Part shown: one piece after another, positions 1-34,738 of the stretch
Position numbering within the stretch: the first letter of the stretch is position 1
Layout: the number at the start of each line of letters is the position of its first letter
Origin: a virus
IMG/VR virus record: IMGVR_UViG_3300046557_000399
Location: 1-35,513 of that record
Strand: one strand, 5' to 3'
DNA length: 35,513 bases
Position numbers and translations under genes: made by a program
Notes under the pieces: model-generated
The model's input: only the letters and a program-made list of their open reading frames with translations
Told to the model about the DNA's origin: nothing
The model's database searches: none

Positions 1-3000
1 TTCTAGCATCTCACCGTTGAAGAATGCTCGGAGAAGATCTTCTCTTGTCTTAAATCCCAATCCTTGAATGAAGTTCCGAATACGACTCAGCACTTGCAGG
101 AAATAGTCCAGGAGCGACTTTGCTTCCCCTGTTGCAACTCCCGTATTAGCATAATCTCCAATATAGTACGCTACTATCTCTTCCTTCAACCACTCTTCGT
201 AAACTCGATCTCTCGTCGCCTTATCTTGCGGCATATTCTGCGCCGCTACGAACTTCTCTACTTCCTCACGCAAATCTGTCTTCGCTATCGTCCCGAGATC
301 AACTCCATCCTTCTTCGCAAACCTATAAAGTTGCTCAAACGCTACGTCGGTTAAGAGCCCTATCCGTCGATAAGCATGCACGAGTTCATGTGCAACCCGC
401 ACTCGAGTCTCGCCATAAGCCTCCTCACTTTTTAGTGCTCCAACAGCTAATTCCATGAAATTAAGGTTCTGATTCTCAAAATACATATACCTTGCAACAG
501 CTCCCCTTGCTACAGGAGCAATCGTTGCATCCAACTTCGGATTGACTTTAATCAATGTGTCCTTCGGTACAATCCCTGCCATAGATTGAAGCGCATGTTG
601 AATTGCCTGTGTGACTGACAACATTACCGGGGAGTCTAGAAGATCTTGATTCAACGAATAAATAGTCTGTTGCTTCATCTTCTGTGTAGCTTCAGCTCTC
701 TCCTTCGAGAACTGGCGCAGATATTCCATCACTAGTGAGAAGAAGTAATCTGGCTGCGTGATATCTAGAGCATACTTACCTCCAAGCTCTTCCCACTGAA
801 CGTAAAACTTATTCATCGCTTGAGCAATCTTGTAATACTCATTATCTAAGAAGGTCTTCGACTCAGGCGTAGCTATACTCCACCTACGAAACTGCTCCGC
901 AATCCACTCCACGTAAGAGGTGAAATAATTTATATTTCCACTATACTCCCCTGGACTATCCATTGGTCCAATTCGTGCTTCTGTCGTTCTCTGCGTCATC
1001 GTTCTACTTACCAACAACGCCTTCTGATACGCGTAGTACATTTGCTGCTGCACTATTGCGGGCAACCTAGCATAGTGATAGTATGCAATAAAATGACCAA
1101 CTTCATGCATTATAGTCTGGAAGATTCTATTTGCACCTCCTTCTACATTCGAGTGTGTAACGTAGATTGTAAGCTCCCCCTTATTAATATTCGCTGATCC
1201 CAACACATGCGCCTGCCCTACCGGCGGGAACTTGACTTGAATATTAAGCCCGCCATCCATTCCTGCTGCTTTCAAAAGCTGATCCACTAAAGGAACTACA
1301 TTCTCCACATGATTAGAGACAAACGCTGCTTGCAGAGCCTCAGTCGGAAAAGCACTCTTCTCTGTCGTCACTGTTGTAGTGGGTAGTGGTAGGCGCTCCT
1401 GCGTATGGCGAGATTGCGAACGCTCAAATAGACTATACGCAGTCTGCTCTAGACGAATCGGCGAAATACCATACGTAAGCTGATTGTGAGTGATTGGTTC
1501 AGCAGTAACAATCTGACCACTAAATGGATAGACTTGTAGCCAAATTCCTTCTTTCATCAAAGCACGAAACTTAGCGATATCCCCTTCTGTCCATTCATTC
1601 TTCATAGGAATGGTTTCAAGTGCTTTAGCTATCAGCCGTGCTTTCTCTTCCGCAGTCGTTCCTGGCTTAAATCTCCAGTTGAAGCTCGAGGCACCCCCAC
1701 CTCCTGAATAAGGAAGAGCACTAACTTCTCCAGGCTTAAACTTATTCAAATCTAACGCAACAGGCAAATACTGTGTTCCAGGATCACTAAGGCTAGACGA
1801 GTCTAAATATGTACTATTCGTCAACACACCAGTCTTAACATCCATGAATGTAATCGCAGCAGTCCTTCCACTATCTGCCACTTCCTTCTTCGTCAGTGTT
1901 CTTCCATCCAACACTGTGTTATAGTAGAAACTTGCGCCGCGACTCGGAACAACGCGCAACCCCCTCGTCAAGAGCACATTATACCAAGTTTCAAGTTGCT
2001 TCTTCTCCTGCAAATAATCTGCAACAGACTTCAATCTGGTACGCTGCCCCAACTCTGCCTGCTTCTGAAGATCCTTATACTCCATTCCAAGCAGTGCCTG
2101 CTCTTCCGCTGACACCTGCGGCAGGAACCAAACCCTACTATTTCCAGGTGTAGGAAGATCAAATACATCTGCTGAGATTCCTAGCGGTTGCAATCCACCC
2201 TGTGAAATCTGCACCACCTCCGGCTTCACTGACTGCGCCATTCCAGTCGCCAGCACAAGCTGAAGATCCGTGTTATTCATCAACTTATCGCCATAGACAC
2301 CATCTGGACTCAACTTCACTGCATACCGTGGCGTCTGCGCTTCCAACATGTCTAACATATCTTGAGTAGTCACTTGAGGCATACCACTTCTCAACAATGG
2401 ACCAATTCCCATCAAGTCTTGCTCCGGCCCATTAGTCGCTGCCTGCTTCAAATCAAAGTCCTGCTCCGGTACTGGCATAACCATATTTCGAAGCGTAGTG
2501 ACCGGCCCGACTCCCCGCGACACCTCCCGTGAATACTCTTGCGCTGCAAACGCTTTCCTCACCCGTGCCATTCTTGGCGTATCTGGCGCTCCCGGATACC
2601 ACTCCCGTTTTCCCATCGGAGCGTAGTAAGATTCTCCATCTCTCATTGCAGTGTAGCCTGCCACTGCCTCCGGATCAATCTGCTTCCAACGAGCATACGC
2701 TTCCTTCGACAACGTCTGATCTGGAACCATCGGCAGCCCATACTTCTGCTCTAACTCCTCCTGCAGTGCAGTCCCAATTCCCTTCCTCTGCCAAGCCTCA
2801 TCGATAGCAATATTCCCTACCTGCAGTGCCACCGGCGCTCCATCCGGAGGCCCTCTCAACTTCCGAACATAAGCTTCTCCGATCTCACTTCCATCCGGAC
2901 CTTTGATCTTAACCGTAGTCTGCGTCGGCCCGTCAGACTCCGTGTCGAAGGTCACTCCCTCTGGCTTACTCGGAGCAATCATCTCAGGCGCCGGAACTTC

Positions 3001-4248
3001 TTCCGTAGGCGCAACTGGAGCTATAGGTGCAGCTGGAGGTGCAGGAGGTGCAGGAGGCGTCCCAGGGGGAATAGTTGGAGTCTCAATCGGCGCAGCTTCC
3101 GATGCAGCTTGAGGCGTAACATCCTGCACTGTTCCCTGGACTCTTACCCTTGCTTCCTGAACTGGAGCTGGAGCCGTAGGTGCCACAAACCTCCGTTCTC
3201 CTGGAACCATTCCACTCTCATCAGGCACCTTAGCTTTCGCCTTAGCATTCTCCTGCCTCGCCTCTATTACCGCACTCGGACCTCCCATTGCTAATCCGAC
3301 GAAGAGTCCTGCTGTACCAGATTCCGCTCTTCTCCAGAGCGCAGGCCCACCGAAATACTCATAACTCGGATCCGTATACTTCCGGGCAACAATATCAACC
3401 TCTTCCTGAGCAAGCTCAGTAGCTGCTTCTTCCCCTCCAACTTTCGCAATCGCTCCAGGAATAGTCTTCCCCAACTGCTTTCCAGGAGTCGACAACGCAT
3501 AGCCAATATGCATCGGCACTATTAGTTCAAGAGCACCCTTAATTGTACCTGCAGTTAAGCTCACTGCCGCTTGCGGACTACCTGTCGCTTCAAACTGCTC
3601 TCCCACTGTACTCGAAGTTTCAATCGGCATAGTAGAGGCGAAAACTCCACCAGCTCCCAGTCCCTTCATCAAAGAGGCACGGGCCACTTTGCTAAGACCC
3701 AAGCCACGAGCAGCCAGGGAGCCTGTGATAGCGCCAACGCCGCCAGTAGCAGCGGCAGCCAAGATGTTAACTGCATTCTCACCTAACCTTTCCGTTAGCC
3801 AAGAACCAAAATCCATCGGATTCCGGATATCGCTCAAGCTCCAAAGACTCTCCGGAGCTATATCTTCAATCGCTTTTGCACTCTTCGCATACTCAGCCGC
3901 AGCAACTTGATCTCCACTCAGATCTGCCCCGATCGCTCTAAACGAATCCGGAATTGCAGCATAACTCTGCAACCCTCTATGCACAGAGCCAATGGCCAAA
4001 TCTGCAAACCCAGTCTCTTCTCGCTTCTTCTGCCTCTCTACTTCCTGTGGAGGTACTTGATCCTCTGTTCCACGAAGGGAGAAGAGATCTGGAGCCGGAG
4101 GTGCAGGAGCCGGCAACTCCAACTGCGGCTTCGCTTGCTCTTCAGTCGTACGGAGATTGTAAAGATCCGACGTCGTATCCGCCGCCGGAGTCACCAAGCT
4201 ATCAGTAGCATCCCGGAGGTCGTAGAGCCCCGGATTCATTCCAGCCAT
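1..4248 (-). CDS. Giant internal-virion / polyvalent protein with GNAT and two metalloprotease motifs (3' end outside window)
   Basis: An uninterrupted frame of 1,416 codons runs from the ATG at 4248 (TAATG overlap with the upstream gene) to the left edge, so the C-terminus is missing. Residues 160-330 are Ala/Gly-rich and hydrophobic, like the membrane-active part of ejected podoviral core proteins. A Pro/Ala linker spans about 352-428. A GNAT acetyl-CoA loop (Q487-R-K-G-I-G-T-A) lies in a small domain at about 430-530. HEVGH at 1048-1052 has a third His at 1058, the metzincin spacing H-x3-H-x5-H, with Ala instead of Gly at 1055. A second motif, HELVH, is at 1287-1291. Known family behaviour: such polyvalent proteins are injected with the DNA and act early in the host. 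Inference: this one combines channel/ejection, acetyltransferase-like and peptidase-like modules. Being last in the ejection-gene block supports the T7 gp16 analogy. Function is confident as a class, unknown in detail. Confidence 0.85.
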   Translation of the reverse strand, partial: MAGMNPGLYDLRDATDSLVTPAADTTSDLYNLRTTEEQAKPQLELPAPAPPAPDLFSLRGTEDQVPPQEVERQKKREETGFADLAIGSVHRGLQSYAAIPDSFRAIGADLSGDQVAAAEYAKSAKAIEDIAPESLWSLSDIRNPMDFGSWLTERLGENAVNILAAAATGGVGAITGSLAARGLGLSKVARASLMKGLGAGGVFASTMPIETSSTVGEQFEATGSPQAAVSLTAGTIKGALELIVPMHIGYALSTPGKQLGKTIPGAIAKVGGEEAATELAQEEVDIVARKYTDPSYEYFGGPALWRRAESGTAGLFVGLAMGGPSAVIEARQENAKAKAKVPDESGMVPGERRFVAPTAPAPVQEARVRVQGTVQDVTPQAASEAAPIETPTIPPGTPPAPPAPPAAPIAPVAPTEEVPAPEMIAPSKPEGVTFDTESDGPTQTTVKIKGPDGSEIGEAYVRKLRGPPDGAPVALQVGNIAIDEAWQRKGIGTALQEELEQKYGLPMVPDQTLSKEAYARWKQIDPEAVAGYTAMRDGESYYAPMGKREWYPGAPDTPRMARVRKAFAAQEYSREVSRGVGPVTTLRNMVMPVPEQDFDLKQAATNGPEQDLMGIGPLLRSGMPQVTTQDMLDMLEAQTPRYAVKLSPDGVYGDKLMNNTDLQLVLATGMAQSVKPEVVQISQGGLQPLGISADVFDLPTPGNSRVWFLPQVSAEEQALLGMEYKDLQKQAELGQRTRLKSVADYLQEKKQLETWYNVLLTRGLRVVPSRGASFYYNTVLDGRTLTKKEVADSGRTAAITFMDVKTGVLTNSTYLDSSSLSDPGTQYLPVALDLNKFKPGEVSALPYSGGGGASSFNWRFKPGTTAEEKARLIAKALETIPMKNEWTEGDIAKFRALMKEGIWLQVYPFSGQIVTAEPITHNQLTYGISPIRLEQTAYSLFERSQSRHTQERLPLPTTTVTTEKSAFPTEALQAAFVSNHVENVVPLVDQLLKAAGMDGGLNIQVKFPPVGQAHVLGSANINKGELTIYVTHSNVEGGANRIFQTIMHEVGHFIAYYHYARLPAIVQQQMYYAYQKALLVSRTMTQRTTEARIGPMDSPGEYSGNINYFTSYVEWIAEQFRRWSIATPESKTFLDNEYYKIAQAMNKFYVQWEELGGKYALDITQPDYFFSLVMEYLRQFSKERAEATQKMKQQTIYSLNQDLLDSPVMLSVTQAIQHALQSMAGIVPKDTLIKVNPKLDATIAPVARGAVARYMYFENQNLNFMELAVGALKSEEAYGETRVRVAHELVHAYRRIGLLTDVAFEQLYRFAKKDGVDLGTIAKTDLREEVEKFVAAQNMPQDKATRDRVYEEWLKEEIVAYYIGDYANTGVATGEAKSLLDYFLQVLSRIRNFIQGLGFKTREDLLRAFFNGEMLE

Positions 4249-5135
4249 TAGGGAGTTCCCCCACCCGGAGCTCCAAATAGACTCTTAAAGTATTCCATAG
4301 ACTTATTTGCTCTAATCTGTCTATCTGAAGCCTGACTCGCAGTATCAATCTGACTCTTGAATTCTGGATACGTTTCCTTCAACTTCGCCCTTCCTTCTGG
4401 TGTAGCGATTGCAGCTGCATAGTCTGGATTATTTTGAATCTTCAACCAGAGAGCATCAGATTGCTTCTTAGTTGCAGCTGCACTAGTTGGCTTCGCCGCC
4501 GGCGCCGGTGCTACCGCTCCCACCGCTCCAGTATCCGGCGCCTTCCCTCCTCCCTGCGCTGCTCGATGTATAGCCAAGGCTTTAGTCGAGTCTGCCTCTG
4601 CTGTTGCTTCAATCTCCTCATCCGTCTTGCCAGAAATAATCTGGGCAGCCCGAAGCGTTGCAAGAGACTTCTGATACGCATCCGACGCTACCTTGGCTTC
4701 CTGTGGAGTCTTTGCTCCCTGCGTGAGTCGAGACCTCTCCAACATAGCCTGCGAACGAATCGAGGCCACCTCTTGTCTACTCTGCGCTCCGATTGAAGCC
4801 ACATCGCGCTTATTCTGCCTCTCCGCTTCCTGCTGTGCATTCTTCTCCTGCGTGTCGAATTGTGCTTGCTGCGTCCCGCTCGCCGCACTCGCTCCTGCTC
4901 CTAGACTCGCCGCAGCTTGCTGCCCGAAATTTCCCCACCCTCCAGTGGCCATCTGCAGTCCCGCAGAGACCATAAACGCTCTATTCACTGGATCAGAGAG
5001 ATAGTCTCCCCAACCTCCCTTCGCCGCTGCTGCAGGCGCTGCTTGCGCCGGAGCCTGCTCAGGTTGCCCAGGCTGCTGTTGCTGCTCCTGATTCGCACCA
5101 GGCAGTAGGGACATCAAATCAAATCCGCCAGCCAT
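4248..5135 (-). CDS. Ala/Gln-rich putative internal virion protein
   Basis: 295 residues. I chose the ATG at 5135 because it overlaps the upstream stop as TGATG and has a GAGAGGGAGGGG Shine-Dalgarno just upstream; a TTG one codon earlier is less likely. A Q/P/A-rich N-terminus (about 15-40) is followed by a Gly/Ala-rich patch with the look of a membrane-interacting segment (about 40-80). Residues 80-170 are charged, rich in Q, A, E and R, and probably coiled-coil. I recognise no catalytic motif. Position between other ejection-type genes and the giant polyvalent protein suggests a core or ejection protein analogous to T7 gp15/gp14. That role is inferred from context only. Confidence 0.75.
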   Translation of the reverse strand: MAGGFDLMSLLPGANQEQQQQPGQPEQAPAQAAPAAAAKGGWGDYLSDPVNRAFMVSAGLQMATGGWGNFGQQAAASLGAGASAASGTQQAQFDTQEKNAQQEAERQNKRDVASIGAQSRQEVASIRSQAMLERSRLTQGAKTPQEAKVASDAYQKSLATLRAAQIISGKTDEEIEATAEADSTKALAIHRAAQGGGKAPDTGAVGAVAPAPAAKPTSAAATKKQSDALWLKIQNNPDYAAAIATPEGRAKLKETYPEFKSQIDTASQASDRQIRANKSMEYFKSLFGAPGGGTP

Positions 5136-6973: not shown

Positions 6974-6980
6974 TCATCAC

Positions 6981-7256
6981 CTATAGTTTGTTCCACACCG
7001 TTGCGAAGAACGCATAAATTCCCTCGCCCGCACCTGGATTCCAATTCGTCCCATCAGCGTAGACCACTAACCCATCCCTTGGCTTCTCTGGCGGCGCATT
7101 AATCTGCTTCAACTGTACAAAGTCCTGAAGATTAAAAGCACGCTCAATCGCTTCCAATTCACGCTGCGTAGACTCAACAGTACTATCTGAAGCAAACCCA
7201 CCCGCACTCCCACTCGGAGTATTACCTACAACTAATCTTCCGGCCTGATATGCCAT
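6981..7256 (-). CDS. Small virion-associated protein (YADGTNWNPG motif)
   Basis: 91 residues, ATG at 7256 overlapping the end of the nozzle gene. The N-terminal half is Gly/Ser-rich and ends in a helix (STQRELEAIERAFNLQ). The C-terminal half carries VYADGTNWNPGAGEGIYAFF, a short beta module I recognise from many podoviral tail and tail-needle-like proteins. It is likely a minor tail or tail-fibre-attachment component. No enzymatic motif is seen. Confidence 0.72.
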   Translation of the reverse strand: MAYQAGRLVVGNTPSGSAGGFASDSTVESTQRELEAIERAFNLQDFVQLKQINAPPEKPRDGLVVYADGTNWNPGAGEGIYAFFATVWNKL

Positions 7257-8839
7257 CAGTTCTCTCCTACCACAGTGATATCGATATCGTACCCCTCACA
7301 AGTCCAAGCCGAGTTCGCACTCGAACTAAATTTCACTGCCATCAGCCTTCCCACGACTTCAAAGTCCAAGAATCTTTGCTGCGGAGAGAACGTCTGCGGA
7401 ATCGTGTAACTAATCGGATCCTCTAACGTCTCCTGGAACCCAATCTGCACTTGAACTTGATTCGCTCCCAACCCTTGGAACTTTGGCCAAATCCTCGTAA
7501 TTATCTTCCTCACTCCATAATCAACTTTCGGCTCACCTTGACGATCCTTGCCTATAATCGCTAACTGTGCATGCTCAAGGAACGCAGTGACAGCCAGAGT
7601 GCCAAAAGTATCTCCTGACTCGAACTGCCAGAATACATTCGCAGCCGGATCTCCAATAACTATTCCCTTACCGCCTGCTGTCTGCCACGGGCCAGTCTCA
7701 TCTGCCCAAGTCCCCTCCGGGGTCGACCAAAGATTGACCGTAGCATCAGTAATATTGCCTTCATCCACCGATTCTCCTTCCCAATCGCGAAAACCAATCG
7801 TATTTCGCCTATAATTCCACACCAGCGCCCTATTCGGACTATCAACTCCCAAAGTGGGATAAACGAAGAGGCACTCATTCTCTCTAGCGTTCTCGAAAGC
7901 GAAACATCCATCCTTCGCACTCACATTTAATTCACCAAATAGCCTATCCCTTGCCTTTTCATCCAATATACTATCCGCGGCCTTCGTTCCCGCATGAGTT
8001 ATGATGTCATTTTCACTCACAACGAAGTGTTTCCTGCCTTTATCGAACAAGCATACACACTTTGCAGCCAAAAGACCTGAATTCAGCAAGAATTCGAGTC
8101 GCATAATCTCCTGTCCACCAATTTGCGAGATCAAATGTGTCGCAGTTTCTTTGTAAACGACGAAATAGTTCCCCAACATTAATCCATCTACAATCTGCCC
8201 CGCGTCCGCATCGGTGAAGTCTCGCTGTCCTGCATCCTGTGTTGCATCATTCACATTCCAAGTCGCAGGAAGGCTCCCCGGATCAGCCCTCGAAGACCAA
8301 AGTATCCTATGCGGCAACCTAGTCCCCGCCACAGTCAAATTCAAAGCCATCAAATAAGAGCCAAAAGGCTTCACAATCTTCGCTCTAGTCGTAGGAATAT
8401 CCGCAACCCACGCAGCGATATCACTCAAATCCACCGCAGAGGACAAGGTCAACCACGCTTGCGGTACATCACTCCCATTATTGAGTACAGGAATACCTCC
8501 AAGCAATCCCGCCTGCCACATTCTCGCCGAAGTAGCAGTATATGGCGTCCCTCCAGCATTGCGCGTGATCTGCGTGTGTACTCCTGCATCATTCACATAC
8601 ACATCTGTAGTGTTTGCATAGAGCCAGAAAGAGCTCGTATCCGTCGCAGTGTTGAAGATAAACCCTGGAGGCACAGTAGGCGTTCCAAGAACTACCGCAT
8701 GCCCCTTCGCACGGTAAGCTTGCTTATTCTTAAACCGCATATTTCTGCTATCAGTCCACGCCTCCGGCGGAAGTGTATGCGCAGGGGAATCTGCCATCAC
8801 TCCAAGAGTACCAACGTTATGAATCGGTATTCGAGTCAC
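7256..8839 (-). CDS. Tail tubular protein B / nozzle-like protein (T7 gp12-like)
   Basis: 527 residues from a GTG at 8839 that directly follows the tail-fibre stop (TGAGTG). The N-terminus (IPIHNVGTLGVMADSPAHTL, PPEAWTDSRNMRF) is typical of the podoviral nozzle or gp12-like family, which forms the distal part of the short tail and the DNA exit channel. The rest is beta-rich with many W, G and D turns, consistent with the propeller-like fold of these proteins. Together with the adaptor gene at 10433-11095 it defines a short non-contractile tail. Length is compatible, if somewhat shorter than T7 gp12. Confidence 0.8.
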   Translation of the reverse strand: MTRIPIHNVGTLGVMADSPAHTLPPEAWTDSRNMRFKNKQAYRAKGHAVVLGTPTVPPGFIFNTATDTSSFWLYANTTDVYVNDAGVHTQITRNAGGTPYTATSARMWQAGLLGGIPVLNNGSDVPQAWLTLSSAVDLSDIAAWVADIPTTRAKIVKPFGSYLMALNLTVAGTRLPHRILWSSRADPGSLPATWNVNDATQDAGQRDFTDADAGQIVDGLMLGNYFVVYKETATHLISQIGGQEIMRLEFLLNSGLLAAKCVCLFDKGRKHFVVSENDIITHAGTKAADSILDEKARDRLFGELNVSAKDGCFAFENARENECLFVYPTLGVDSPNRALVWNYRRNTIGFRDWEGESVDEGNITDATVNLWSTPEGTWADETGPWQTAGGKGIVIGDPAANVFWQFESGDTFGTLAVTAFLEHAQLAIIGKDRQGEPKVDYGVRKIITRIWPKFQGLGANQVQVQIGFQETLEDPISYTIPQTFSPQQRFLDFEVVGRLMAVKFSSSANSAWTCEGYDIDITVVGEN

Positions 8840-25768: not shown

Positions 25769-25806
25769 GTGTGTGTATTATAAAAAATTTTTTTTACTAC
25801 ACACAC
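25769..25806. repeat. AT-rich central palindrome
   Basis: Arms GTGTGTGTA and TACACACAC flank AT-rich DNA with six A then eight T at the exact centre. This is by far the most AT-rich short stretch in a GC-rich neighbourhood, so it is a candidate DNA-unwinding element. On the minus strand it also contains a perfect TATAAT (25782 to 25777), but without a -35 box at the right distance. On the plus strand TTGCAA (25755) and TATAAA (25779) are 18 bp apart, so a promoter here cannot be excluded. Confidence 0.65.
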
Positions 25807-27038: not shown

Positions 27039-27242
27039 ATGTCTATCCACAACACCGAACGACCTGACTTGTGCTACTGCATCTTCTGCCGCCGCAAACG
27101 CCTCTTAGCCCACTACGGTGCTAAGCCATCGCACGAAGCTAAAGCCAAGGACTTTCTCGTAATGAACACCAAACGCTCGATGTTCATCCTCGGTCCGCGG
27201 TCGCTTCTCACCGGCGAACGAAAGGTAGTAGCTCAACTCTGA
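27039..27242 (+). CDS. Small basic Cys-containing protein
   Basis: 67 residues, ATG at 27039 with AGGTG upstream. LCYCIFCRRKRLLAHYGAKP contains a C-x-C-x-x-C knuckle, possibly a half zinc site. The rest is basic (HEAKAKDFLVMNTKRS) and ends ERKVVAQL. It is followed 8 bp later by a strong terminator, so it probably closes a transcription unit. Unrecognised. Confidence 0.6.
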   Translation: MSIHNTERPDLCYCIFCRRKRLLAHYGAKPSHEAKAKDFLVMNTKRSMFILGPRSLLTGERKVVAQL

Positions 27243-27249
27243 ACTAAAG

Positions 27250-27282
27250 GAGCACAGCCCCCCAAAAGGGCTGTGCTCTTTT
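27250..27282 (+). terminator. Strong rho-independent terminator
   Basis: A perfect 11-bp stem GAGCACAGCCC / GGGCTGTGCTC with loop CCCAAAA and a TTTT tail. It separates the short hairpin-punctuated group (26295-27242) from the long operon beginning at 27304. The next gene's ribosome site AAAGGAG starts right after it. Confidence 0.9.
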
Positions 27283-27303
27283 GCTTCAAAGGAGATCGCT
27301 CCA

Positions 27304-27748: not shown

Positions 27749-27960
27749 TGTCTTCCGGCTTCCAACTCAAGAAGAGCGAAGCAGATGCACTCACTAAGCT
27801 TCTACCTCTCCTCGATCACCTGAGCGCCACTCTAACAGAAGAGGAATTCGCCACACTCAACCTCCTACGGGCTAGACTCAACAATCCCAAGTACTACAAA
27901 CCAAGGACACCCTCCAATGCTATACATCGCAGACCTCTCTCATCACAACAGCCCGACTGA
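27748..27960 (+). CDS. Small helical protein
   Basis: 70 residues, ATG in TAATG overlap with the previous stop. Helices KKSEADALTKLLPLLDHLSA and TEEEFATLNLLRARLNNPKY. The last 15 residues overlap the lysozyme start in a different frame. Together with the two preceding genes it is a short run of small helical proteins. Function unknown. Confidence 0.6.
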   Translation: MSSGFQLKKSEADALTKLLPLLDHLSATLTEEEFATLNLLRARLNNPKYYKPRTPSNAIHRRPLSSQQPD

Positions 27961-28753
27961 CTTTTCCCAAGCCAAAGCCTGGGGAATTCACGGTATCATT
28001 CACAAGGCCACCGAAGGTCTCTCCAACACCGACCCTACCTACGCCTCTCGCCGCCAACTCGCACTAAACGCCAACCTCCTATGGGGCGCATACCACTTCT
28101 TCCGTCCATCAGACCCCATTAAGCAAGTCTCTCACTTCCTCTCTATTGCCTCTCCCGACGCCAACACCCTACTCGCACTTGACCACGAGGACTCCAACTG
28201 CTCCGCAGCCATGGCCATCACCTTCCTCAAGGAACTTGAGCAGCGCATCGGCCGCAAATGTCCACTCTACTCCGGTCACCTAATCAAGGAACAACTCCAA
28301 GATCAAGTCGACTCCTACCTACGCCAATGCCCACTCTGGCTCGCTCAATACGGCCCCACTGCCGTCCTACCCAACACTTGGAACGACTACTTCCTCTGGC
28401 AATTCACTGGCGACGGCCTCGGCCCAGGCCCTCACTCAGTCCCCGGCCTCGGAATCAACATCGACTTGAATCGCTACCAAGGGACAGAAGAACAACTCAG
28501 ACTCGACTGGACTTCCTCCTCCACCTCCACCTCCACCTCAATGCAAACCTCCTTCAATCAATGGCTCCAATCTTCACTCAACCTCTTCGGAGCTCACCTC
28601 CTAGTCGACGGCCGCTTCGGCCCAGTCACTCTCCTCGCTCTCCGCACTTATCAGGCCGAACAGAACCTCCAAGTCACTGGCCACTTCGACTCTCCAACTC
28701 TCAACTCACTTCTCACTGAACTCCAACATAGGATCACCACCTCCAATGCATAA
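27917..28753 (+). CDS. GH25 lysozyme with C-terminal peptidoglycan-binding domain
   Basis: 278 residues, ATG at 27917 with AAGGA upstream. The GH25 fold is complete: D6 in IADLSHHN, E33 (HKATEG), W/Y-H-F (57-61), the catalytic D89-H-E91 (LALDHED), YSGHLIKEQ, WLAQYG, and the C-terminal WQFTGDG/IDLNRYQG. A Ser/Thr linker (about 200-210) leads to a peptidoglycan-binding repeat (DGRFGPVTLLALRTYQAEQN, then GHFDSPTLNSLL). The enzyme cleaves the MurNAc-GlcNAc bond. No signal peptide is seen, so it needs a holin or acts from lysed cells. It is distinct from the GH108-like protein in the late operon. Confidence 0.92.
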   Translation: MLYIADLSHHNSPTDFSQAKAWGIHGIIHKATEGLSNTDPTYASRRQLALNANLLWGAYHFFRPSDPIKQVSHFLSIASPDANTLLALDHEDSNCSAAMAITFLKELEQRIGRKCPLYSGHLIKEQLQDQVDSYLRQCPLWLAQYGPTAVLPNTWNDYFLWQFTGDGLGPGPHSVPGLGINIDLNRYQGTEEQLRLDWTSSSTSTSTSMQTSFNQWLQSSLNLFGAHLLVDGRFGPVTLLALRTYQAEQNLQVTGHFDSPTLNSLLTELQHRITTSNA

Positions 28754-31641: not shown

Positions 31642-31887
31642 ATGGCTAAGAACCACACCGCCACCGTACCCTGGAAGGTCCACGTACCTCAAGATCTCGC
31701 ACTCCGAATTGAATCTCGCTTCTACGATTCAGAGAAGCGCAAGCCTCGTTACGGGCAGCGCAACGCTCTCATCGTCGCACTTCTCCAACAGTGGGACCTG
31801 AAAACAGACCTTCCCGACTGGTATAATAAGCCCGCCCCCGCTCTCACTCCCCTAATCCTACCAAACCTAGAGGGAACCGAAGCCTAA
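31642..31887 (+). CDS. Ribbon-helix-helix-like small DNA-binding protein
   Basis: 81 residues, ATG at 31642. V-P-W-K-V-H-V-P-Q-D-L-A-L-R-I-E forms a strand then a helix, followed by K-P-R-Y-G-Q-R-N-A-L-I-V-A-L-L-Q-Q-W: the strand-helix-helix order of a phage RHH/CopG-like fold. The C-terminal part is Pro-rich. Such proteins are typically dimeric repressors; the operator palindromes in this window are possible targets but there is no proof. Confidence 0.62.
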   Translation: MAKNHTATVPWKVHVPQDLALRIESRFYDSEKRKPRYGQRNALIVALLQQWDLKTDLPDWYNKPAPALTPLILPNLEGTEA

Positions 31888-32210
31888 TGTCAGTCGAACG
31901 TCCTGCACTTGAGATCACCGAATCGGACCCGATCAAGCTCGACAATCGGCTCCGTGAACTACAAGCTGCACAGCTCCGCCGCAAAATCCAAGGCCTTCAG
32001 ATTCCCGAAGGGACTTCGCAAGGCGAGGCCGACCGCCTCCGCCGTGAGTGGAATTCGAGCTACGCTCTCGAAATTAAGGAAATGATCGGAATCACCATGA
32101 AGCTCCGGCGCACCTCAGCCGGCCCCGCCGCTAAAGGCGGCAAACGCGCCAAGCGCGCTCCCCTAGACATGGATGCAGTGATCATGGACATGGGGTTAGA
32201 AAAAGCATGA
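31887..32210 (+). CDS. Basic helical hypothetical protein
   Basis: 107 residues, TAATG overlap with the RHH-like gene. LDNRLRELQAAQLRRKIQGL, EADRLRREWNSSYALEIKEM, then a basic Lys/Arg-rich C-terminus (AAKGGKRAKRAPLDMDAVIM). Paired with the preceding RHH-like gene it may be an accessory protein, but there is no evidence of a toxin-antitoxin pair beyond size and coupling. Confidence 0.6.
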   Translation: MSVERPALEITESDPIKLDNRLRELQAAQLRRKIQGLQIPEGTSQGEADRLRREWNSSYALEIKEMIGITMKLRRTSAGPAAKGGKRAKRAPLDMDAVIMDMGLEKA

Positions 32211-32265
32211 ACACCAAAACCTATTGGAGTAGGTCTCGCGTTGCGGCGGTCATCCTGCTCCGATC

Positions 32266-32334
32266 GTCCAGGAGGAAACTAACCCTCCTGGACGCAATTT
32301 CCTTCACTGGCCACGGGGGGAGCAGGGCCAGTGA
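32266..32334 (+). promoter_or_regulatory. Two hairpins in the leader of the outer-membrane protein gene
   Basis: Hairpin 1: GTCCAGGAGG (32266-32275) with CCTCCTGGAC (32284-32293), perfect 10 bp. Hairpin 2: TCACTGGCC (32304-32312) with GGCCAGTGA (32326-32334), 9 bp, loop with GGGAGCAG. The loop can instead pair with CTGCTCC upstream (32255) or downstream (32346), both in CTGCTCCGAT repeats. So the leader could switch between structures. It could also be an intergenic terminator pair, although no U-tract follows. Confidence 0.5.
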
Positions 32335-32371
32335 CTGTATCTTCACTGCTCCGATAAGTAGGAGAAGCAAC

Positions 32372-33040
32372 ATGAAGACCCTCTACTCGAGCCTAGCAGC
32401 ACTGGCACTCTCTGCCATGCTCGCCACCCCCGCCGATGCCACTGGCGTCACTGGCGGTCGCTGCTACGTTGAAGCCAGCGTTAGCGCCGGCGCCGCCTTC
32501 AACACTCTCTCCATCGCAAAAGAGGACTTCGATCTCGGAGCTCAAGGCTACGGAGTTGCACCGGGTATCGGCTGCGACCTACTCCTGAATCCTTTCTTCA
32601 TCGGGATTCTCTATCGCTACGACTTCACCTCTATCAAGGGCTCAGCTGCTGATCTCACCTCCTTCAATCTCACTTCCCTCTCCACTCCAGCAGTACGCCT
32701 CGGAGTCAACATCACTCCCTCTACTGCACTCTACGGCATCGCGGGCTACACTTTCGCTCGTCAGAAAGATGAGAAGTTCGTTCTCGCCTCAAGCTCCTTC
32801 TCCGGCTACATGGTCGGTGGAGGCCTCGAACAACAACTCAATCCCAACCTCTCAATCAAATTTGAATACAACTTCAATCGCTTCGATCACGAAGACCTCA
32901 CCTTCCTCGACAACGAGGTGAAGATTCCAGCATCGCAAGGCCCCGACATTCACGTCTTCCGCATCGGCCTCGCCTACACCTGGGGTGGTACCTCCTACTC
33001 TCAGCCCAACTTCAATACCACTTACCGCCCCTTGAAGTAG
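32372..33040 (+). CDS. Outer-membrane beta-barrel protein (Omp25/OmpA-like)
   Basis: 222 residues; ATG 32372 with AGGAG ten bases upstream. A Sec signal peptide (1-23: basic start, hydrophobic LAALALSAML core, A-D-A cut site) is followed by a barrel with alternating strands (YVEASVSAGAAF, FFIGILYRYDF, TPAVRLGVNI, SFSGYMVGGGLEQQL, SIKFEYNFNRFDH, FRIGLAYTW). The C-terminal residue is Lys after a short tail, not the usual aromatic, so BAM recognition may differ. The long frame begins at 32207, but the signal peptide fixes the true start. An outer-membrane protein in a phage could alter host surface: adsorption, exclusion of other phages, or envelope stress. Host origin is likely. Confidence 0.85.
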   Translation: MKTLYSSLAALALSAMLATPADATGVTGGRCYVEASVSAGAAFNTLSIAKEDFDLGAQGYGVAPGIGCDLLLNPFFIGILYRYDFTSIKGSAADLTSFNLTSLSTPAVRLGVNITPSTALYGIAGYTFARQKDEKFVLASSSFSGYMVGGGLEQQLNPNLSIKFEYNFNRFDHEDLTFLDNEVKIPASQGPDIHVFRIGLAYTWGGTSYSQPNFNTTYRPLK

Positions 33041-33055
33041 TTCTAAAGACCCCAA

Positions 33056-33079
33056 GGAGGCAGGCTCAGGTCTGCCTCC
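33056..33079 (+). terminator. Hairpin after the outer-membrane protein gene (no U-tract)
   Basis: GGAGGCAG (33056-33063) with CTGCCTCC (33072-33079), loop GCTCAGGT, starting 15 bp after the stop codon. The next gene's ribosome site (GGAGTCTCA) comes just after. It may limit read-through or stabilise the upstream message. Confidence 0.5.
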
Positions 33080-33099: not shown

Positions 33100-34107
33100 A
33101 TGACCTCAATCGCAGACCTCCAACTCCCTCACTATCTCGACTCCTCCTGGCTTACCGCCTGGCGCGCCTGCAAACGGAAACACTTCTGGTCCGCCCTTAT
33201 AGGAATCTATCCCTCCGGCCAATCTGTACATCTAATCGCCGGCGCTGCAATCGCTTCAGGCATGGAATATGTTAGAAAGGCAGTCTTTGACCCACTCAAT
33301 TCCGGAACTCGCTTCTCTCATGAGGAGCTTATGGAATTCGCCATGTCCGGCTTCGTACAGGAATGGGGCTCCTACACTGCTCCTCAAGGTCACGCGAAAT
33401 CGTTCCACAATACTTTCGCCGCACTGGACGACTACATTCGACGATACAATCCCTACGATGACGTGGTCCAGCCCTTCCGCCGCCCCAACGGCGAAGCCGC
33501 GATCGAATACAAATTCTCAATACCTCTCGACATCAAACACCCCGACTCCGGAGATCCAATCTGCTTCGTCGGTAGATTCGATATGCTCGGAGTCTACGAC
33601 CACCCTGGAGGCCAGATCAATGTCCTCGTTGATGAAAAGTCAACTGCCTCAATCGGCTCTTACTGGGCTTCTCAGTGGGCGCTACGAGGCCAATTTCTTG
33701 GCTACTGTTGGGCCTGCCAGCAACAAGGAATCTACGTTTCCACTGCGTGCGTCCGCGGAATCGCAATTCAAAAGACCCAGTTCGTCTGCGCCACCGCTCT
33801 TCCCGAATACCCACAATGGCTCATCGACCGCTGGTATCGAGAGATGTACCGTGACATGGAAGGAATCGTACGAGCTTACGTGGCCATCAAAAGACGAGTC
33901 CAAACATCTGAAGAAGAACTTGATCAAGCTCTGGAATATTTTCTACCCCTCAATCTTGGTGACGCGTGCTCATCCTACGGCGGCTGCGCGTTTCAAACAC
34001 TTTGCGAAACAAATGACCCTTGGCGCTACACCTCCAACTACATAAGGCATCGTTGGGACCCACTGAAGAAGCAACCAGTAGAGGAAATCGCAAATGAAAG
34101 CATTTGA
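33100..34107 (+). CDS. Cas4/AddB-like PD-(D/E)XK nuclease with putative Fe-S cysteines
   Basis: 335 residues, ATG after GGAGTCTCA. SSWLTAWRACKRKHFWSALI holds C24. The nuclease core is G-R-F-D161, V-L-V-D178-E179-K180 and Q198-x-x-G-Y with its helix. The C-terminus carries C290-x5-C296-x5-C302. One Cys before plus three after the nuclease core is the Cas4/AddB/Dna2 arrangement for a 4Fe-4S cluster. The spacing of the middle pair differs from the usual C-x2-C. Family knowledge: such enzymes trim DNA ends in recombination or replication. In a phage a recombination or end-processing role is most likely; no cas genes or CRISPR lie in this window. It overlaps the next gene by 14 bp. Confidence 0.85.
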   Translation: MTSIADLQLPHYLDSSWLTAWRACKRKHFWSALIGIYPSGQSVHLIAGAAIASGMEYVRKAVFDPLNSGTRFSHEELMEFAMSGFVQEWGSYTAPQGHAKSFHNTFAALDDYIRRYNPYDDVVQPFRRPNGEAAIEYKFSIPLDIKHPDSGDPICFVGRFDMLGVYDHPGGQINVLVDEKSTASIGSYWASQWALRGQFLGYCWACQQQGIYVSTACVRGIAIQKTQFVCATALPEYPQWLIDRWYREMYRDMEGIVRAYVAIKRRVQTSEEELDQALEYFLPLNLGDACSSYGGCAFQTLCETNDPWRYTSNYIRHRWDPLKKQPVEEIANESI

Positions 34108-34579: not shown

Positions 34580-34738
34580 ATGGCCAAATCTCATCCAGGC
34601 TTCAAAGCAGTCCAGAGCAAGATCCAATCCGAAGGCTACTCGAAGAGAGCCGCTGGCGCAATCCTCGCCAACAAGACCCGGAACGCATCTGCAAGCGCTA
34701 AGCGCTCCAATCCTCGCCTGAAGCGCGTGAAGGGCTAA
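34580..34738 (+). CDS. Small basic phage protein (52 residues)
   Basis: ATG 34580, with AGGAG 13 bases upstream. MAKSHPGFKAVQSKIQSEGY, SKRAAGAILANKTRNASASA, KRSNPRLKRVKG. This H-P-G-F-K-A-V-Q...A-G-A-I-L-A...R-N-A-S motif is a familiar small phage protein, often encoded close to the preceding one as here. It is strongly basic, so probably nucleic-acid-binding. Function unknown. Confidence 0.78.
   Translation: MAKSHPGFKAVQSKIQSEGYSKRAAGAILANKTRNASASAKRSNPRLKRVKG

Follow-up and report, generated by a model that had tools for sequence, protein, structure and literature searches.

The window, which is the whole stretch of 35,513 nucleotides that was analyzed and corresponds to one virus record, carries genes for capsid, portal, TerL and tail proteins on the minus strand, and its plus strand encodes the endolysin and the replication proteins. 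Its TerL is 37% identical to that of Microcystis phage Mel-JY34 and 34% identical to that of Vibrio phage ABTNL-3. Positions 1–26190 of the window are >99.9% identical to IMG/VR record 3300046791_000259, which also overlaps the last 81 bases of the window. From these overlaps at both ends, the genome of this tailed phage appears to be about 48.3 kb long and either circular or permuted. The part of the genome outside the window encodes a DUF3987 protein, DNA polymerase A, ribonucleotide reductase, a DNA methylase and an AAA protein, as well as a uracil-DNA glycosylase/polymerase fusion. The gene of the ribonucleotide reductase large subunit, in this same part, is composed of L005:16491-16997 and L006:1-1111, the second piece being assigned by eye. 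Neither an integrase nor a repressor was found among the proteins scanned against PHROG and Pfam, including those from outside the window, in scans that were incomplete for small unknown ORFs; because of this result nothing points to lysogeny, which an earlier note on this DNA had offered as an option. The gene of the beta-barrel protein studied here, P0001, is located among the replication genes at a distance of about 4 kb from the endolysin gene (27917–28753), and its features are collected in Table 1.

Table 1. Positions in the window of the barrel gene, its parts and its neighbors
Feature	Position	Strand	Basis or remark
Small upstream gene	31887..32210	+	ORF lists
Perfect 11-bp hairpin (CGTCCAGGAGG/CCTCCTGGACG) followed by CAATTT	32265..32294	+	Between upstream gene and barrel gene; fold z -5.15
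Shine-Dalgarno sequence AGGAG	32360..32364	+	7 nt 5′ of ATG 32372; read from the sequence
Phage outer-membrane beta-barrel CDS (P0001)	32372..33040	+	222 aa; PF13505, homologue in L088/L089, AF2 8-strand barrel
Signal peptide, residues 1-23 (MKTLYSSLAALALSAMLATPADA)	32372..32440	+	n/h/c regions, A-x-A motif, crude rule scan
8-stranded barrel domain, residues 24-204	32441..32983	+	AF2 model, VIA-align; internal terminal-strand signal RIGLAYTW
C-terminal tail, predicted periplasmic, residues 205-222 (GGTSYSQPNFNTTYRPLK)	32984..33037	+	Partly conserved in L089; low pLDDT in the model
Hairpin between barrel and exonuclease genes (GGAGGCAGGC/GTCTGCCTCC)	33056..33079	+	Stretch z only -1.59
Neighboring exonuclease, PD-(D/E)xK type, anchor of the locus	33100..34107	+	phrog_1218, E=4e-7
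52-aa basic protein	34580..34738	+	88% identical in L089

In the ORF list the frame of the barrel gene is also open from ATG 32207, overlapping the stop codon of the upstream gene. A start at this position would place about 55 residues ahead of the signal peptide and bury it, and hence ATG 32372 is the likely start. The signal peptide, which is the clearest in the window by the crude rule scan, is predicted to be cleaved between MKTLYSSLAALALSAMLATPADA and the following TG. The leader from 32228 to 32375 is strongly structured (z of -3.24 for the whole stretch), and it contains a repeated sequence CTGCTCCGAT, at about 32255 and about 32346, whose copies pair alternatively with GGAGCAG; the leader could be a bistable switch or a processing site. 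The upstream hairpin is terminator-like and may serve as a terminator or a processing element, the number of terminator-like sites in the window being near that expected from shuffling. A search of Rfam at the hairpins matched no known RNA, and a scan for promoters returned no signal above chance.

P0001 matched the Pfam family OMP_b-brl (PF13505) with 50.9 bits (E=2.7e-13), well above the curated cut-off of 28.7 bits, and its residues 10–202 covered positions 2–173 of the 175 in the profile. The match to OmpA_membrane (PF01389; 17.7 bits, E=0.0032) was below the 21-bit cut-off, Ail/Lom gave no Pfam match at E up to 1, NCBIfam contained only a weak, sub-cut-off match to OmpX (E=0.14), and none of the PHROG families matched at E up to 1. 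Only barrel families were listed in the Pfam scan of P0001, and the OmpA_C peptidoglycan-binding domain was not found. Since PF13505 also includes Omp25 and Omp31 of Brucella (PMC11126717), the Omp25-type family name used in the earlier note is fair at the Pfam level.

The first AlphaFold model, which was based on two sequence rows only, had low confidence (pLDDT 34.6), and its Foldseek matches count as weak support only. The second model used the two phage rows together with six further viral-contig barrels, which were included over strands 5–8 only, because strands 1–3 of these remote sequences could not be aligned reliably. The resulting model of the mature chain consisted of eight strands (mature residues 5–19, 35–48, 52–69, 73–90, 95–108, 119–132, 137–149, and 169–181) with a pLDDT of 75 and a pTM of 0.72, in which the confidence for strands 1–4 rests on two rows. 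Among the solved chains compared using VIA-align, OmpA was the best match (Z 18.7, 3.3 Å, 177 aligned residues), followed by OmpW (Z 17.6), NspA (Z 16.3), and OmpX (Z 13.3), all of which are 8-stranded outer-membrane barrels. The identity of P0001 to OmpA and OmpW is, on the other hand, only 12–15%. Together, these data indicate that P0001 is almost certainly an outer-membrane barrel. The description in the earlier note, of a complete barrel with a signal peptide in a phage gene cluster, is thus upheld by the ORF, the Pfam match, the rule-based signal peptide prediction, the modeled structure and the phage genes around it.

The C-terminus of P0001 is different from that of the bacterial members of the family. 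The last strand (DIHVFRIGLAYTW) ends at W204 and is followed by the 18-residue tail, while eight plasmid-borne bacterial homologues stop, in the alignment, at a phenylalanine equivalent to W204. The pattern GG..Y..P...Y.PLK is common to the tails of P0001 and of its homologue in a related phage (L089). The earlier note considered the lack of a C-terminal aromatic residue to be unusual for a BAM substrate; this is literally true of the last residue, but the signal strand RIGLAYTW is internal and ends with the aromatic W204. As the tail that follows this strand is conserved between the two phages, the C-terminus of P0001 does not represent a BAM anomaly. The two proteins also have in common a pair of cysteines, C31 and C68 (mature residues 8 and 45), which would face each other from strands 1 and 2, provided that the modeled strands pair as their ends suggest, and which may form a disulfide.

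The homologue was reached through the neighboring exonuclease, in the IMG/VR records 3300046747_000514 (L088) and 3300046792_000341 (L089), which contain an identical barrel sequence and are two records of one related phage. It is 46–49% identical to P0001, and its signal peptide has the cleavage region TPAHA followed by Q. Single-sequence scans of the viral and genome collections with the barrel, as well as a two-row scan of the genome collection and a tblastn search of phages, returned no relative. The barrel family was absent from all 52 phage records found through TerL hits, of which four were named phages and many were fragments, and among 49 relatives of the exonuclease, many also from fragmentary records, it was present in L088 and L089 only. 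Because the other relatives searched do not have the gene, it seems to be dispensable in the wider group.

The position of the barrel gene is not the same in the two phages. In the window it is upstream of the exonuclease gene, whereas in L088 and L089 it is downstream of the same gene, with its start overlapping the end of the exonuclease frame. The next closest relative, L090, encodes at 6975–7385, directly after the exonuclease, a different predicted secreted protein (MLKLSTAAVGAIGALGALLYACPAAAQS...), the gene of which overlaps the exonuclease frame in the same way as the barrel gene of L089. The different location in L088 and L089 and the different protein in L090 suggest that this subgroup uses the flanks of the exonuclease gene as an accessory site for genes of exported proteins. 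A small gene with a stretch similar to the gene upstream of the window barrel directly abuts the exonuclease gene in L090 and is located just before it in L089; this correspondence was drawn by eye, and the BLAST match was not significant.

The comparison of P0001 with its phage homologue showed that 66 of 119 residues were identical in the strands (55%), but only 11 of 47 in the outer loops (23%), while the tails were 40% identical. Of other proteins common to both phages, the exonuclease was 48% and structural proteins were 28–73% identical, so that the barrel, at 46%, has diverged about equally, which is consistent with long residence under selection. The best alignable bacterial barrels, on the other hand, were only 22–28% identical to P0001. 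In a tree with plasmid, prophage and Agrobacterium phage Rivra barrels the phage pair formed its own clade (100/100) on a long stem, while the Rivra barrel nested with Rhizobium. As both scans of the genome collections were empty, the bacterial side of this tree is confined to homologues from plasmids, with no Brucella sequence among those compared. Since the MAFFT alignment of the remote rows is uncertain in strands 1–3, only the separateness of the phage pair from the Rhizobium-type barrels is taken from the tree. Hence, the sequence comparisons point to a long-resident phage gene, which would have evolved inside a viral lineage rather than been recently copied from a host.

Small barrels encoded by phages are already known, although they are barely characterized, and P0001 is a new and divergent one among them, which is distinguished by its internal terminal-strand signal and the additional tail. 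Many annotated outer-membrane barrels are present among viral structure models. The Rivra barrel (gp27) and similar viral-contig barrels are PF13505-type proteins carried by phages, as P0001 is. However, Rivra has an annotated integrase and CI, and its barrel closely resembles those of Rhizobium (57% identity), ends in phenylalanine and has no tail. Lom of phage lambda is a small 8-stranded outer-membrane barrel linked to adhesion (PMC4198210). The fold of P0001 matches those of the related Ail and OmpX, but there is no sequence match to the Lom and Ail-OmpX-PagC group, and the phage encoding Lom is temperate.

The location of the gene among replication genes suggests that the barrel would be made during infection together with the replication proteins, and before lysis. 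As judged from its signal peptide and strand pattern, in a way that is established for the family, the protein would be exported by Sec and inserted by BAM through the internal last-strand signal, and it would then be exposed at the surface of the host cell. Here it could change, mask or replace surface structures and thereby hinder adsorption or injection by further phages (superinfection exclusion); alternatively the benefit could be that progeny are not wasted on infected cells and debris. The outer loops are divergent and the strands conserved, the clade is phage-specific, and a homologue is located beside the replication exonuclease, all of which supports a role at the surface. We infer that, of the functions considered for P0001, an alteration of the surface or the masking of receptors in the infected cell is the likeliest, although we would stop short of calling it probable. 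That phages exclude others by inactivating surface receptors is established, as for Cor of phages phi80 and N15 acting on FhuA (PMC11436027), but this precedent does not involve a barrel of the P0001 kind. The literature searched contained no 8-stranded phage barrel with a demonstrated exclusion function and no paper on barrels of this type in phages. Fast divergence of loops would also fit any surface protein, and hence it counts against the specificity of the exclusion reading. The absence of the gene from the other relatives searched likewise weighs against this reading. A narrower version is rather unlikely: here a lineage of phage-specific barrels, equipped with its own cross-strand disulfide and the conserved periplasmic tail, would supply a receptor mask or decoy at the infection stage, and thus an exclusion class built on a small integral outer-membrane barrel in a phage without lysogeny genes.

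The main rivals to a role in exclusion are envelope maintenance and accessory cargo. In the manner of OmpA or Omp25, P0001 could support the outer membrane while a long infection proceeds, with the tail touching the periplasm or peptidoglycan and premature collapse being delayed. This is consistent with the fold being nearest to OmpA and OmpW, with the conservation of the tail, and with the placement of the gene among replication rather than late genes, but the missing OmpA_C domain and the short, low-confidence tail make it improbable. A similarly low likelihood applies to a fitness cargo (moron), which would help the infected host, for example in uptake or stress resistance, and would be tolerated in the accessory site beside the exonuclease. 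The change of side between the two phages, the different secreted protein in L090 and the hairpins flanking the window gene would fit such cargo, while the lack of an integrase or repressor leaves little lysogenic benefit and 8-stranded barrels usually have no wide pore. The barrel could also weaken or open the outer membrane late in infection in place of spanins, none of which were recognized among the scanned proteins; this is much less likely, because such scans often miss spanins, small barrels stabilize membranes rather than rupture them, and the gene is grouped with replication genes away from the endolysin gene. Recent capture of a host gene without a selected phage function, or an assembly artefact, is scarcely credible: although the family is widespread in Alphaproteobacteria and the barrel of Rivra is clearly a recent acquisition, capture is rejected on identity and tree, given that an intact homologue accompanies this exonuclease in other phage records, that the clade is separate and has a long stem, and that phage genes are present on either side of the barrel.

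As to the host, all 23 plasmid matches to the barrel were in Alphaproteobacteria, and the best matches of the 52-aa protein in the phage collection were Bradyrhizobium and Agrobacterium phages. The host is therefore probably an alphaproteobacterium, perhaps within Hyphomicrobiales, and these hints name no genus. The expectation that the barrel would help in guessing the host thus holds at the level of Alphaproteobacteria, but it does not extend to the genus, because the bacterial barrels are too distant and the phage pair stands in its own clade. For an uncultured group of phages related to Microcystis phage Mel-JY34, the barrel thereby adds weight to a host in Alphaproteobacteria.

By placing outer-membrane proteins of their own in the surface of the host, phages could gain control over secondary adsorption, loss of progeny and host physiology. 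To our knowledge, hardly any phage-encoded outer-membrane proteins have been tested so far. P0001 is intact and has a moderately distant homologue in a second phage species, with a conserved barrel and tail and divergent outer loops, which makes simple tests possible.

Two further observations were made elsewhere in the window. The plus-strand arm contains long imperfect inverted repeats at 27237–27291 (24-nt arms) and 25769–25806 (19-nt arms, with A/T runs), the latter being possibly a bidirectional terminator. In the structural region a giant ORF at 1–4284 on the minus strand runs on in L005 and reaches 2,640 aa in the overlapping record; inspection by eye revealed a GNAT-like stretch (IAIDEAWQRKGIGTALQEEL) and two HExxH motifs (MHEVGHF and VAHELVHAY), which suggests a possible virion protein with enzymatic domains.
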